This document shows positions 42,190 through 47,915 of a stretch of DNA of 64,000 nt, piece by piece. The notes beneath the pieces were generated by a model that was not told where the DNA came from, did no database searches, and worked only from the letters and a program-made list of their open reading frames with translations. Within the stretch, counting starts at the first letter, position 1, and each line of letters starts with the position of its first letter. This DNA comes from Lenzites betulinus (lineage: Eukaryota; Basidiomycota; Agaricomycetes; Polyporales; Polyporaceae): contig JABYQU010000017.1 of assembly GCA_022264855.1 (NCBI GenBank), positions 536,693 to 600,692 on the forward strand, written 5' to 3'. The position numbers were made by a program, and so were the translations under genes.

Positions 42190-42335
42190 AAATTGCACGC
42201 ACCAATTACCTTGAGGTAATGCAGGATTGCCCCAAATAACCCTGTGTCTACCTGGAGTAGCACACGCATAACAAGGAGGTGATGCAGAATAGCCCGAGCG
42301 CTGTAATCTTTGCATTACCTCCTCATTAGCCAGTG
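42190..42335. repeat. Cluster of GGAGGTAATGCA-like repeats
   Basis: Two direct copies (AGGTAATGCAGGATTGCCCC near 42,212 and AGGTGATGCAGAATAGCCC near 42,279) and one inverted copy (TGCATTACCTCC near 42,311) lie just outside the putative LTR start. The second and third can pair over 12 bp with one G-T wobble. They may be the outer part of the LTR or remains of another insertion. Confidence 0.5.
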
Positions 42336-42697
42336 TGTAATATCACATTACGCGCATCCCGGATTACGCGCGCGTGAGACGTCGTGTTTCCCTTGTACAC
42401 GGACATTTCCTTCGACATTACATTACCGTTCTCCTTGGGTAATGGAATGTGATGATCGCAAAGCTCTGGCTGAGGGTCTCCTGATTCATCGCATAAATAG
42501 CAGGCATACTCGAGCACCCTCCTTCTTCTCGTACTCTCATCTCCAAGTCTTCCGAGCCGCCTTTGTCCTTCCACCTATGGGCCCTACCTGAGAATTCGGC
42601 GCATTGAGTTCGTTCTCAATGACGACTGTGAGTTAGACCATCTCCATCTCTCTCTCTCTCCAGGTTTTGGATCTCGTACCTGTAGTGCAACTATGTA

Positions 42698-42896
42698 AGG
42701 AGCGCGTATCCTGCGCTCCTACAGGATCCTTTAGTTGTGCGAAACGCACAACTAAAATATACGGAATCGGACAATACGTACACGCGCGCATATTAGCGCG
42801 CGGATAGCCGCATGTATGTAATGCCACCGCGTACGGTGTCCCGAGTGTTCGGAACTCGGGCGCCTGGTGGAGGGTAAGTCCTTACTACCCTCCACC
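42698..42896 (+). repeat. Five consecutive perfect stem-loops in the leader of element B
   Basis: Stems and loops: 42,698-42,705 with 42,713-42,720 (8 bp); TTTAGTTGTGCG 42,730-42,741 with 42,745-42,756 (12 bp, 3-nt loop); CGCGCGC 42,783-42,789 with 42,796-42,802 (7 bp, AT loop); CCCGAGT 42,840-42,846 with 42,854-42,860 (7 bp); GGTGGAGGGTA 42,866-42,876 with 42,886-42,896 (11 bp). All are perfect and follow one another without overlap. Confidence 0.95.
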
Positions 42897-43094
42897 ATCC
42901 CTACGAGTACGCCGAGCCCAAATACGAGCCCGGACCAGAGTACCCAAGGGATAGGAGCCCAGTAAGGCACCTACCCCGTCATTCTTACACTTTTTTACTC
43001 TCCGTGATACTTACACGCCCATATTTGGGGCTCGACGTTACCACGTCATCAATCATCAACAACATCTGCCATAAACAACTCGACATCCTTCCAA

Positions 43095-46000
43095 ATGGAA
43101 GAATCCGCGCCAGGTTCCGGAAGCAAGCGGCCGAGTAGGCCTAATTCCCCCCCGCGAGCTTCTTCCCTCCCGCCACGCACTGATATCGGTGCTGGCGTGC
43201 CACGTCGCAACAACCCCCCCGTGCCAGTGTACTCACACCCGCATGCGGGCGCGCGACGGACTCGGAACGTAACTTCGCGTTCCGAGAATGTAAACGTGCC
43301 GGTCGAGACGACCGTACACCCCGCAGCGAACGTTTCTCGTGCGCCGTCAAGAGCTCACTCGCATACAAGTGTTATGCCCCCTCCAGTGACTCGGACAGGC
43401 CCGCCGTCTATGCGCGCGGATTCCCCGTTGTTGGAATACGTCAGCCAACCACGTAGTATCGTGGTTGGCTCAGTACGAGGCCCGGAATCGCCGCGGCCAG
43501 CGGCGAGTCAATTGCCGAGGTCAGCAAGTAGGAGTTCCCAGCTGTCGCTAGACTCGAAAGGTCTAGCGAAGGTCAGCAAACGGTGGCAAGGCGTTCGCGA
43601 CCGACATCGTCGCGACTCCATTGCCCCATCAACCTCGCTCGAGCTGCTCAGCGCACTGCAGCGGTCTGCAACCCGGTTCCGCGAATTACGGAACCAGATA
43701 TTGGACGCAGAAGACGAGCTGGCTGGCCACATTACAGGCCTGACCATATTACATGGATCCGACGGGCATGGACCGAATAGGTCCGAAATGGACAGCGATG
43801 TCGAGCTGCCAGCAGGTGAAGCTGCTGGCGACGAACACGAGGTCGAAGACGAGCTACTCGGATACGAGTCAGCCCCAGATCTCGAGGCGGAAATGGACGA
43901 ACAGCGTCGCTGGGAAGCCAGCCGGCGCGAACGACTGAAGAGGGCTGGACTCAGTGAATCCGACATAGAACGTAGACGTTCGCAGCCGGCGTTTGAGTCG
44001 ACACCGAGACCTATCGGTCAAGGCGGAGCATCGAATGCGATGCCTCGCAGGAACGTAGTGTTCGACCCGGAGGAACCGCGTTACGGTTCCATATCCAGGG
44101 CGAACGCCTGGCCCGATGCGGCCGCGCCTCTTACCAGAGGCCTGAATGCCGCGGGAGTTACGGGCCCTACGCTTCCTCCTGCAATGCCAGGACTACGACC
44201 TCGTCGGTCGATGGCCCCATCAGCCATGGGCGGGATGCACTACGCCCGCCCCGATAATGAGCGCGATGCCAACACGGCACATGATGTACCCGAGTTGGCG
44301 TATACGGGTCCCAGTCCTATCGCGCGAGATAGTTTTGGCGTCCAGCGATTGCTGGACATGATTGAGGAGATGGTAAGCGAGGAGGCTACCTCTCCTCCCC
44401 CAGCCTATCTCAAGATGTCCAAGTTGCCGCCGCCGAAATCGTACGACGGCAAAGACAATCTGGACGAGTTCGAGCTGTGGCTCCGCGGGCTACTGGAGTA
44501 TTTCCATACTCTCCGCATCACCGGAGACAGCATGGATGCAGACAGGTTACGTCTGCTCAGCTCGAGTCTCACGGACGAGGCGGCGCTGTGGTTTTACAAC
44601 ACGGTGCAGTCCACTTCTCGCGAGAAGAGAAACTGGCTCTTCTCCGAGGCCGTAATCGGGCTGTTCCGCCGGTTTATCCATCGGGATAATTACCTCTACG
44701 CGGCCCAGCAATTTGAACGTCTGAAATACGACGCTAGCAAGGGAGGAGTAGCCGCTCTGTATGAACGGCTACTATACATATCCGACAGGATGTGGGAGCG
44801 CCCTTCACGATACCAGATGAGGACCAAGTTCCTTGACGCATTGCCCGAGAGTTTCGAGCATGTGATAGCGGTAGTTAACGGCTTATCCGTTAAATACAAT
44901 ACCTTGACCGACCTGTACCATGCTGCTCTGGATATCGAGCAGAATACGCGCGCTATGCAGATGCGCAGGCGTGCCCGTGAAGGCCATAATACGGTCGCTT
45001 CAACTACGGTGACGCGCCCTACGAAGGACCTCTCCACTCGGAGGAAGCAAACTGCTCCTCCGAGTAAACCGACGCAACCTACGTCGGTCTCACGGCCTGC
45101 GCACTATGCGGCTAAGCCTGCCGAACAAGGACGGCCTCGCACCGGAGGTCCGTCTGGGGACAAGACACGTAACGTGCCTCACCCGAACAATCGTCCCAAC
45201 GGAAAGCAGGCCGCCACCAAAGCAGCGCAGACTTGCTATTCGTGTGGACAGATCGGACATTTCGCGTCCGATCCAGTCTGTCCGAACGCGGGTAAACGCG
45301 ACCACTCCGGTCCTCGCATGTTTGCTCAACGAGTATTGGACGATACGTCCGACCATGAACAGGCCGCGCACGACGAGCAAGTCGGCGTGGCTGATGACCA
45401 TGTACCCGAACCAGAGGAGGATGAAGCTCTGGTAGAGGACGAAACCGACCTGCAAGTCGTAGGGGATTACCCTCAGTCAGAATATGGCTGGGGAGGATCT
45501 CAGTATGAATCAGAGCACGAAGAAGTGTTCGACACCAATGATCACTACGATCAATTGGAGTTCGCAGGAATGCGCATAGAACCTTTGGCCGATGAAGTAT
45601 CGGATACGATACACATCCACAGCATGGCAGTAGGGCAAGACCGTGCTGCGAGACATGCGTGGATGTATGACGCCAAAGTACGGCGCATCGAGGATCCGCA
45701 GGCACAACCAGCACGTACGCTGGATACGCAACGCACGTTATGTGCCGAGCTCCCGATCAACGGAGTCAAGGGCTTAGTGCTCTTTGACTCCGGATGCACC
45801 ACGGACTCTATCACTCCGGAGTTCGCATATTTGTGCAAGGCAAGTCGTATCGACTTGAAGGAGCCAATGGGCCTACAGTTGGGCACCAAAGGCAGCCGCA
45901 CGAAGATAAACTTCGGGGCTCGAGCGTCAATAGCGCTCGGAAATATATGCGAAACGCATTATTTCGACGTCGTGGATATTGACAAATACGATGCCATATT

Positions 46001-46130
46001 AGGCACCGTATTCTGTCATCAATATGGCGTTGTTCTCGACTTCGCGAAGAACCGAGTAGTGATGAATGGGAAGGAGATCCCGTTATTCATTGAAGGAGGC
46101 AAATACGCCAGCCAGCGTGCGGCGTATTAG
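43095..46130 (+). CDS. Element B Gag with zinc knuckle and retropepsin
   Basis: One frame of 1,011 codons starting MEESAPGSGSKRPSRPNSPP. A Pro/Ser/Arg-rich N-terminus leads to a capsid-like helical region near residues 450-630 (PKSYDGKDNLDEFELWLRGL, WFYNTVQSTSREKRNWLFSE, YAAQQFERLKYDASKGGVAA). A CCHC zinc knuckle CYSCGQIGHFASDPVC lies near residue 714, with six residues rather than four before the last Cys. An acidic spacer precedes a retropepsin-like domain near residues 880-1,000 with the active-site motif LVLFDSGCTTDSI and the later DAILGTVFCHQYGVVLDF. The frame is unbroken, which suggests recent activity. It stops at 46,130, before the RT frame. Gag binds and packages the element RNA, and the protease matures it. 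Confidence 0.9.
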   Translation: MEESAPGSGSKRPSRPNSPPRASSLPPRTDIGAGVPRRNNPPVPVYSHPHAGARRTRNVTSRSENVNVPVETTVHPAANVSRAPSRAHSHTSVMPPPVTRTGPPSMRADSPLLEYVSQPRSIVVGSVRGPESPRPAASQLPRSASRSSQLSLDSKGLAKVSKRWQGVRDRHRRDSIAPSTSLELLSALQRSATRFRELRNQILDAEDELAGHITGLTILHGSDGHGPNRSEMDSDVELPAGEAAGDEHEVEDELLGYESAPDLEAEMDEQRRWEASRRERLKRAGLSESDIERRRSQPAFESTPRPIGQGGASNAMPRRNVVFDPEEPRYGSISRANAWPDAAAPLTRGLNAAGVTGPTLPPAMPGLRPRRSMAPSAMGGMHYARPDNERDANTAHDVPELAYTGPSPIARDSFGVQRLLDMIEEMVSEEATSPPPAYLKMSKLPPPKSYDGKDNLDEFELWLRGLLEYFHTLRITGDSMDADRLRLLSSSLTDEAALWFYNTVQSTSREKRNWLFSEAVIGLFRRFIHRDNYLYAAQQFERLKYDASKGGVAALYERLLYISDRMWERPSRYQMRTKFLDALPESFEHVIAVVNGLSVKYNTLTDLYHAALDIEQNTRAMQMRRRAREGHNTVASTTVTRPTKDLSTRRKQTAPPSKPTQPTSVSRPAHYAAKPAEQGRPRTGGPSGDKTRNVPHPNNRPNGKQAATKAAQTCYSCGQIGHFASDPVCPNAGKRDHSGPRMFAQRVLDDTSDHEQAAHDEQVGVADDHVPEPEEDEALVEDETDLQVVGDYPQSEYGWGGSQYESEHEEVFDTNDHYDQLEFAGMRIEPLADEVSDTIHIHSMAVGQDRAARHAWMYDAKVRRIEDPQAQPARTLDTQRTLCAELPINGVKGLVLFDSGCTTDSITPEFAYLCKASRIDLKEPMGLQLGTKGSRTKINFGARASIALGNICETHYFDVVDIDKYDAILGTVFCHQYGVVLDFAKNRVVMNGKEIPLFIEGGKYASQRAAY

Positions 46131-46250
46131 CACAGTGTAGTGGAATCCACCAAGGTGGAGCCTCCCCAAACCCGCTACGCGATGACTAGTATGTCACCGG
46201 AAGGGGGAGGGAACGACGGCGAAACCGTCGTAACTCCGGTACGACATTAA
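46131..46250 (+). other. Gag-pol spacer of element B
   Basis: 120 nt with stops in the frame of the RT (last one TAA at 46,248). It contains stem-loops TCCACC-AA-GGTGGA (46,146-46,159) and ACGACGG with CCGTCGT (46,213-46,231). How RT is translated downstream of gag is not evident; re-initiation is one option. Confidence 0.6.
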
Positions 46251-47915
46251 GGTCGGGCAGCGAATGCCGCTGTTCCCGACATACGAGAACGTAGTGTACC
46301 TACCGTACACTCACAATCGAGACCGAAATTGGTCAACAACTATGGCAAAGACCCATTCGGCATCCACGAGATGCTCGACCAGATAGCGAAAGAGCAACTG
46401 GAGGATGAAATAATCCGACGGACACACGTCGGATTTGTCATAGATGAATCAGAAGAAGAGCTGAATAGGCTCCGAGAACGGTGGTATAAAGAGACGGAGG
46501 ACATAATGCGTCCTGCGCCTGAGACCCTACCCCCGTATAGGGAGATCAATCATCGTATTCCGCTGATTGATGAGAAAAAACTATACAAGTATCATCTGCC
46601 GCGATGCGCGGAGGCGATCAAGGATGAGCTTCTTACGAAGATCAACCGGTATGTAAAGGCCGGCTGGTGGAGACCTGCTACGGTCACACAAGCCGCTCCG
46701 CTACTATGCGTAGCAAAGAAAAATGGCAAACTCCGAACTGTCATTGACGCAAGACAGCGCAATGACAATACTGTACATGATCTTACGCCATTTCCGGATC
46801 AAGATCAGATCCGGATGGACGTGGCACGAGCGAAATACCATTCGAAGATCGACTTATCCGACGCGTACGAGCAAATATGCATCGTAGCGGAGGATATCTG
46901 GAAAACCGCATTTTCCACTCCTTTCGGAACCTTCGTGAGCGAAGTAATGCAGCAGGGCGACACAAATGCACCCTCTACATTCCAAAGGCTAATGACCACG
47001 ATATTTCGTGAATTCATAGGCCGATTCGTTCACGTATACCTCGATGACATATTCGTCTTCTCGGATACTATCGAAGATCACGAGAAACACCTGAAATTGG
47101 TGTTTAACGAGCTTCGAAAGGCACAACTATTCCTTAGCAAGTCGAAATGCGACTTGTATTCTAAGGATCTGGACTGTTTAGGTCATCGCATAGATGACCG
47201 CGGCTTGCACGCTGATACAGACAAGATGAGCCGTATCCGTAACTGGAGAACCCCGCAGTCTTACAATGAAGTCCAGCGGTTTCTGGGACTAGTGAATTAC
47301 CTAGCCCATTTCATGCCAGATATATCGGCATACACATCTCCGCTTTCGGAGATGGTACACAACGATAGACCTTTCGTATGGCGAGCCTTGCACGAGAAAT
47401 GCTTCGAGTCCATTAAGACTCTAGCGTGCAAGGTCCCCATACTGAGACCAATAGACCCGCGCCGCAGTGAGCCGATATGGCTCATATGCGACGCCTCACT
47501 GTTTGGAATCGGGGCCTTATACGGCCAAGGCGAGGACTGGCAATCATGCCGTCCCGCTGGATTTCTATCGAAGAAGTTCACCAGTGCTCAGCGTGCATAT
47601 CACACGTATGAGCAAGAGACGCTTGCAATAATGGAAGGACTCCTGAAATGGGAGGATAAACTTCTCGGCCGCAAGTTACGTATCGTAACTGACCATAAGG
47701 CCTTAGAATTTATGAAAGGGGTCAAGAATCCGAATCGTCGCCAGATTCGCTGGTACGAATACCTAGCCAGATTTGACTACGATATTACCTACGTACCTGG
47801 GCGACTCAACAAAGTCGCGGACTGTCTATCTCGATACTACGAGATGGACTCCTTGCATGACACGACGCCGGAATACGACGTTGATGCACTGAAACCTGCT
47901 ATAACAGCAGGATAG
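46251..47915 (+). CDS. Element B reverse transcriptase and RNase H
   Basis: Open from 46,251. The first ATG is at 46,371 (MLDQIAKEQLEDE), so translation may start there. RT motifs in order: KKNGKLRTVIDARQRNDNTV, KIDLSDAYEQI, TPFGTFVSEVMQQGDTNAPS, the polymerase active site HVYLDDIFVFSD and LDCLGHRIDDRG. The connection and RNase H follow, with catalytic acids in IWLICDAS, YEQETLAIMEGL, IVTDHKALEF and NKVADCLSRYY. The frame stops 23 residues later at 47,915. Full-length gypsy pol would continue into an integrase of about 400 residues; none is present in any frame of the following 3 kb. The coding sequence is intact. The protein would make element cDNA, but integration would need an enzyme from elsewhere or another route. 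Confidence 0.92.
   Translation, partial: GRAANAAVPDIRERSVPTVHSQSRPKLVNNYGKDPFGIHEMLDQIAKEQLEDEIIRRTHVGFVIDESEEELNRLRERWYKETEDIMRPAPETLPPYREINHRIPLIDEKKLYKYHLPRCAEAIKDELLTKINRYVKAGWWRPATVTQAAPLLCVAKKNGKLRTVIDARQRNDNTVHDLTPFPDQDQIRMDVARAKYHSKIDLSDAYEQICIVAEDIWKTAFSTPFGTFVSEVMQQGDTNAPSTFQRLMTTIFREFIGRFVHVYLDDIFVFSDTIEDHEKHLKLVFNELRKAQLFLSKSKCDLYSKDLDCLGHRIDDRGLHADTDKMSRIRNWRTPQSYNEVQRFLGLVNYLAHFMPDISAYTSPLSEMVHNDRPFVWRALHEKCFESIKTLACKVPILRPIDPRRSEPIWLICDASLFGIGALYGQGEDWQSCRPAGFLSKKFTSAQRAYHTYEQETLAIMEGLLKWEDKLLGRKLRIVTDHKALEFMKGVKNPNRRQIRWYEYLARFDYDITYVPGRLNKVADCLSRYYEMDSLHDTTPEYDVDALKPAITAG

Follow-up and report, generated by a model that had tools for sequence, protein, structure and literature searches.

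The window, a 64,000-nucleotide stretch of the Lenzites betulinus genome (contig JABYQU010000017.1, positions 536,693 to 600,692 of the forward strand), carries a long terminal repeat (LTR) retrotransposon, element B, which from 42694 to 47881 is saturated with short perfect hairpins in coding and non-coding parts alike and folds far more stably than its shuffled counterparts. We favour, with confidence a little above even, the reading that B has evolved a structure like the genome-scale ordered RNA structure (GORS) of RNA viruses, in which folding itself is kept rather than particular pairings.

Hairpins were defined as non-overlapping perfect stems of at least 7 bp with loops of 3-10 nt. In a preliminary description, in which element B was placed at 42190..47915, at least 24 such hairpins were claimed, and a scan of that interval gives 34. 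The bounds required correction, as 10 of the 11 other copies aligned begin at 42694 and one at 42693, so that 42190-42693 is not part of the element and 2 of the 34 hairpins drop out with it, and homology ends at 47881 in all five copies that reach far enough. Within 42694-47881 there are 32 hairpins, against means of 2.2-2.3 in dinucleotide-shuffled sequences (two sets, 300 each; maximum 8), which bears out the earlier chance estimate of about three, and seven stems of at least 9 bp, against means of 0.13-0.16 (maximum 3). The LTR holds five hairpins, gag 17 and pol 9; 500 synonymous-codon permutations gave 1.66 for gag and 0.68 for pol. The density of element B is 6.17 hairpins per kb, and the neighbouring sequence does not match it, the rest of the window having only 0.68 per kb (40 in 58,812 nt). 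The excess lies mainly at loops of 3-8 nt, with its maximum at 7, and 7-base inverted repeats number 68 against 25.8 expected, whereas direct repeats of this length are hardly in excess (36 against 29.2). Helices seldom extend beyond the perfect stem, only one having at least three pairs past the first outer mismatch, and no regular spacing of the hairpins was seen (coefficient of variation 0.79). The hairpin saturation of element B is thus confirmed as real; there is virtually no probability that chance, base composition, codon usage or shared protein sequence accounts for it, as dinucleotide and synonymous permutations, together with the sister family described below, rule these out.

The folding energies of B likewise lie far outside the shuffled range, also when codons are preserved. 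In 120-nt windows on the plus strand, the mean z is -2.75 for B, approximately 0 for three other stretches of the window, and -0.7 to -1.1 for a sister family (S) and outgroup families (O) from the same host genome, the only one covered. Measured against 30 synonymous permutations per sequence, B gag has a folding excess of 23.5% (z -11.3) and B pol one of 32.5% (z -13.3); the excess is 8.7-9.7% in S, 1.0-13.6% in O, 4.0-6.4% in L044 and three loci further removed (L046, L048 and L049), 0.6% in the pol of the window's other LTR element, and -3.2 to -8.2% in four other open reading frames (ORFs) of the window, which are not verified as genes. With 350-nt fragments and dinucleotide shuffles, B gag reaches 20.9% and B pol 29.7-30.0%, every fragment being positive (minimum 13.3% among 16 gag fragments and 9.6% among 17 pol fragments of L024); S reaches 7.0-10.2%, O 0.8-9.1%, and the phage genomes MS2 and Qbeta 27.9% and 33.8%. 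The excess is absent from the other stretches of the window (below 0) and from another LTR element there (0.5%). A weak folding excess of 1-14% is clade-wide in the S and O loci (L027-L043), without hairpin saturation.

Saturation is restricted to B among the families examined. Hairpin density over pol is 5.2-5.5 per kb in five B loci, 0.8-1.2 in six S loci and 0.3-1.7 in six O loci; since the pol of S is 72% identical to that of B, shared protein sequence was rejected as the cause. In a reverse transcriptase (RT) tree of 30 rows, which used 11 of 120 listed proteins and in which the window's other element forms a very long branch, B and S each form one group and together join four Trametes proteins (95/100 support); the nearest named proteins to B are from Trametes species (69-83% identity, three of them at 80-83%). 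The B protein is 54-57% identical to outgroup loci L036, L037, L040 and L043, and that of the sister 54-58%, so the B protein is not the faster-evolving of the two. No relatives were found among viral contigs. The DNA flanking B copies is mostly of ordinary hairpin density; denser spots occur in L015, L017 and L054 and are explained in part, as L017 includes a B LTR and L054 a high-copy repeat inserted in the copy on contig C19.

All hairpins are given here on the plus strand. Those of the LTR lie at 42698..42720 (8 bp), 42730..42756 (12 bp, intact in 12 of 12 copies), 42783..42802 and 42840..42860 (7 bp each) and 42865..42897 (12 bp). In gag, the longest stems are at 43443..43470 (11 bp, also intact in all 12 copies), 45036..45065 (10 bp), and 43261..43286 and 43545..43569 (9 bp); 8-bp stems are at 43808..43829 (9 bp in three copies), 44622..44644 and 45251..45273, the last over the zinc knuckle; and 7-bp stems are at 43488..43506, 43595..43615, 43675..43695, 44072..44090, 44228..44251, 44340..44357, 44875..44893, 45068..45088, 45410..45433 and, in the protease part, 45841..45857, whose stem letters are identical to those of the hairpin at 47138. 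Downstream, a 7-bp hairpin lies shortly 3' of the gag stop (46213..46231) and another, at 46293..46311, is perfect in the window copy only, among the eight copies covering the site; they are followed in pol by 46412..46435 (9 bp) and, over the RT, by 46793..46815 (8 bp), 46899..46917, 47085..47105, 47138..47156 and 47181..47199 (7 bp each), the sister family having the same peptide as at this last site without the full stem. The most distal in pol are at 47335..47354 (8 bp) and, in the RNase H part, 47674..47690 (7 bp). All twelve hairpins first listed as examples are among them, one being longer than stated (12 bp from 42865, not 11 bp from 42866), and an outer stem at 47131/47161 and a G-T-containing helix at 47824-47849 are both visible in the sequence by eye.

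Coding hairpins with stems of at least 6 bp number 28, 9 and 16 in registers r0, r1 and r2 (3.46, 2.82 and 3.08 when permuted), and are commonest where third codon positions pair with second positions and rarest where third pair with third. Some pol hairpins sit in peptides common to the sister, with few, mostly synonymous, differences (GHRIDDR, FPDQDQIRM), and others where the protein differs. The loop-closing pair is G-C in 37 of 42 cases (60% by chance) and the outer pair in 24 of 42 (57% by chance). Loops of B are A-rich (34% against 26% in matched segments). In an exploratory count over 73 loops of stems of at least 6 bp, TATC occurs 10 times against 1.4 expected and GAAA 8 times against 1.7; among the 57 loops closed by 5-bp stems, TATC occurs once (1.1 expected) and its reverse complement GATA six times (1.3 expected); in sister loops of stems of at least 5 bp, TATC occurs seven times (1.5 expected) and GATA not at all, and O loops show no excess. 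Because the loops are A-rich and these motifs replicate unevenly, we make no firm claim of a common recognition motif.

Variation among copies bears on whether the folding is maintained. We identified 469 derived variants, taken only from columns with at least four copies and a clear majority (440 or 439 scorable), over 12 copies for parts of the window element, eight for the next two pol pieces (some partial) and five for the 3' piece. With one real copy as background, variants that break stems of at least 7 bp number 25 against 39.4 expected (440 variants, p 0.006); for variants present in more than one copy the observed and expected numbers are 2 and 7.7 (p 0.02). The mean change in folding free energy is 0.59 kcal/mol, against 0.97 at control sites with the same trinucleotide context and codon position (z -4.15 over 439 variants), and for third-position variants 0.46 against 0.97. 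These results are moderate evidence that folding is kept among B copies, although a mutational bias that spares or restores paired sites may explain them instead. An earlier stem-breaking count (20 against 44) was dropped, as it undercounts copies with two changes in one stem; an early count in which no shared polymorphism fell within a stem (0 of 506 sites) was also abandoned, having become 3 of 540 (p 0.083) with the hairpins of all copies and not significant with more sequence.

The main rival explanation is templated mutation, in which the nascent strand, in reverse transcription or in host replication, snaps back on itself where an inverted repeat is imperfect, so that one arm serves as the template for the other; the B enzyme would then be unusually prone to this, selection on the protein would purge harmful cases, and the hairpins would be perfected without serving any use. 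Template switching that homogenises the two arms is documented in yeast, as far as the available parts of the reports go (PMC8604942, PMC3820800), and such an origin would suit stems that are perfectly Watson-Crick paired, G-U-poor, short-looped and strand-symmetric and whose density is highest in the non-coding LTR (five within 296 bp). A shortage of stem-breaking variants would also be expected if breaks were re-copied. Hairpin gains number 15 against 9.4 expected (p 0.035) when each carrier is its own background, but with one real copy as background they are not raised (11 against 8.7, p 0.27). Moreover, the arms have not diverged unequally from the sister beyond the control (0.218 against 0.168, sd 0.032), amino-acid changes do not cluster significantly in stems (3 of 34 against 26 of 443), and other families copied by RT lack the saturation. 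We regard templated mutation as rather unlikely.

The preliminary description took G-T wobbles within helices as a pointer to structure in RNA, an argument that fails because G-T is no more in excess than A-C: across 8,366 nt of family-B sequence, 13 helices contain a single G-T against 4.65 expected and 15 a single A-C against 6.62, and in the window element alone the counts are 4 against 2.9 and 11 against 4.1. MS2, an RNA genome, has 9 G-T and 8 A-C helices and is strand-symmetric too, so that neither test separates RNA from DNA. The structure might have been selected in DNA, for example as hairpins of single-stranded cDNA in reverse transcription or integration, or in DNA-level silencing. 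Perfect Watson-Crick pairing and strand symmetry would agree with this, but the equal symmetry of MS2 means that the latter is not DNA-specific, and we know of no DNA-level process that requires 5 hairpins per kb; we consider selection in DNA quite improbable.

The reading that we prefer, of a GORS-like structure, draws on published values from the available parts of the GORS literature. There the threshold for the mean folding excess is 3% (PMC3950689), hepatitis C virus has 7.5-10.7%, SARS-CoV-2 about 15% and unstructured viruses 1.1%, and the structure is described with pairings that are not shared between relatives (PMC7642675). B shows an excess of 20.9-30.0%, spread along its genome, and its pairings are not kept in S beyond common descent, that is, they are not conserved between relatives. 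Conservation of sister stems of at least 5 bp was considered and rejected, since two of three references gave z values of 2.7 to 5.1 but the third 0.8 and 1.2, and stems of at least 6 bp did not show it. Under this reading, many local, short-looped, GC-closed hairpins throughout the coding and non-coding sequence of B would be maintained by selection on folding as such, leaving individual pairings free to change. The folded molecule would be the genomic RNA, and the benefit would lie there: most simply, a compact RNA that packs into Gag particles, or protection from host nucleases and RNA interference (RNAi), given that short hairpins would not form long double-stranded RNA and that a folded RNA would expose less single strand. 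The host genome has Piwi-domain and RNA-dependent RNA polymerase (RdRP) family matches above curated cut-offs, and RNA silencing is therefore possible in this host. A more specific version, which we put forward tentatively and hold to be possible rather than probable, is a phage-like RNA fold under selection that condenses the RNA for packaging and hides it from RNAi, with dozens of hairpins running through every gene, some of which carry recurring loops, and with the sister families representing the starting state.

Several observations weigh against a selected RNA structure. On the minus strand the folding excess is almost undiminished and fold preservation among variants equally strong (z -4.69), and the predicted pairs are G-U-poor (6.2%, against 10.5% in MS2 and 11.4% in Qbeta); given strand equality and G-U-poor pairing, RNA is only the presumed target of folding. 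Private variants, many of them probably post-insertion, also show the effect on folding energy (z -2.5, -2.7), which goes beyond what selection alone predicts. Variable sites are not significantly depleted in stems (41 against 48.3 expected, z -1.16), nor do paired third positions vary significantly less than unpaired ones (9.8% against 11.6%, p 0.18). Covariation among copies, proposed at the outset as a check, did not materialise (2 compensatory pairs against 1.3 in the null), and between families there was no clear excess (4 of 24 comparisons at p 0.03-0.05); this is not a strong test, since divergence is too low within B and too high between families. In addition, the 3' region folds less (12.8-13.7% in 120-nt windows, the copy on contig C46 having 13.7%), B is far richer in short perfect hairpins than MS2, and the evidence comes from one host genome.

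Family B is a young LTR retrotransposon of the Ty3/gypsy type, with TG...CA LTRs, a CCHC gag, aspartyl protease, RT, RNase H and, from the C46 copy (L051), integrase. On the plus strand, the 5' LTR (42694..42989, 296 bp) has TGTAAG...CTTACA ends and its five hairpins in the first 204 bp; 26 of 40 genome matches are LTR-only (query base 1 to 296-303), and older LTR copies, on contigs C98, C65, C17 and C52, are 86-94% identical. A leader segment just 3' of the LTR (43024-43036) is, judged by eye, nearly complementary to a stretch in the last part of the LTR (42912-42925), apart from one bulge, and might pair with it in priming or folding; no exact complementarity of at least 9 bases was found. 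The gag-protease ORF (43095..46130, plus strand) encodes the zinc knuckle and aspartyl protease (PF00098, PF08284) and ends in TAG at 46128-46130, and pol continues in the same frame (46131..47881, plus strand; RT and RNase H; PF00078, PF17917). The stop is followed by a small predicted hairpin and a longer stem (46128..46215, plus strand), and the same prediction results for two of the three sister loci that were folded. The relatives (loci L022-L032 and L036-L043) likewise have gag and pol in a single frame interrupted by a stop, with TAG in five B and six S loci and, in six O loci, TGA followed by CTA, CTT or CTG; UGA-CUA is a context that we take to be a readthrough signal. From its sequence, the stop with its downstream stem looks like a site of stop-codon readthrough.

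The window copy is broken off at 47881, without integrase or 3' LTR, and has an extra in-frame stop in pol (46248-46250) that is absent from four other B loci. The integrase domains H2C2, rve and SH3_Tf2-1 are present by Pfam in L051, whose ORF past the integrase extends beyond the sequenced stretch examined, the 3' LTR lying approximately 1.7 kb further. A chromodomain, expected at the integrase C-terminus if the element is of chromovirus type, was not called by Pfam in L051, where a 2.8-kb inverted-repeat insertion interrupts; chromodomain-like residues are seen on both sides by eye only. This insertion (L051 1233-4041, near the pol end) matches its own reverse complement over its full length with 97.5% identity. 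From 4483 onward, L051 has a further ORF, located after pol and before the 3' LTR; by eye it is proline-rich and then coiled-coil-like, the 414 residues scanned match no Pfam family, and its region has 3.4 hairpins per kb. The integrase part of the C19 copy is interrupted by a different high-copy repeat (L054 716-2601 and L025 1-725; 160 matches, 70-100% identity) that has inverted ends of approximately 0.9 kb and perfect hairpins of its own (12-13 bp, 3.7 per kb).

In RNA viruses it is difficult to tell replication, immune evasion and packaging apart as causes of folding. Strongly folded B beside weakly folded sisters, in one genome with Piwi and RdRP matches, is a natural paired system for the purpose of folding, and the pair also bears on selection versus templated mutation as its origin. 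The preliminary description knew of no fungal LTR element built in this manner, and we likewise found no earlier report in the open-licence literature on GORS and the minimum-free-energy difference (MFED), retroelement folding, Ty RNA, fungal LTR hairpins or Polyporales. In the available parts of this literature, genome-scale RNA structure has so far been discussed for RNA viruses; as such it is known, but at this strength in an LTR retrotransposon it seems to be new.

Compared with known systems, B works like the GORS viruses without being a member, as it is an LTR retrotransposon and not a positive-strand RNA virus, the kind of genome in which such structure is linked to persistence in the host. 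As these viruses are described in the accessible text, they have in common with B a genome-wide folding excess, many local stem-loops, pairings that are unconserved among relatives and an under-representation of fold-disturbing variants, whereas in B perfect, G-U-poor hairpins predominate. Among genome means, the top value given in the available part of PMC7642675 is 23.4%; B pol (30%) lies above it and B gag (21%) slightly below, a comparison that is approximate because shuffling schemes differ in detail. MS2 and Qbeta have a folding excess of equal size, which in MS2 is also nearly equal on both strands; however, they have only 2.0 and 3.6 perfect hairpins per kb against 6.2 in B, have more G-U pairs, have loops of 5-7 nt in 2 of 7 and 3 of 15 hairpins against 22 of 32, and show no kinship to B. 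The genomic RNAs of Ty1 and Ty3 are, like that of B, LTR retrotransposon RNAs with structured parts, being described as A-rich mosaics in which stable structured regions make up to 30% of the RNA, but hairpin saturation of a whole genome is not mentioned in the available part of that report (PMC11381356). A further comparison is with the sister S and outgroup O, which share the gag/stop/pol layout of B and a weak folding excess of 1-14% but differ in their background density of perfect hairpins (0.3-1.7 per kb).

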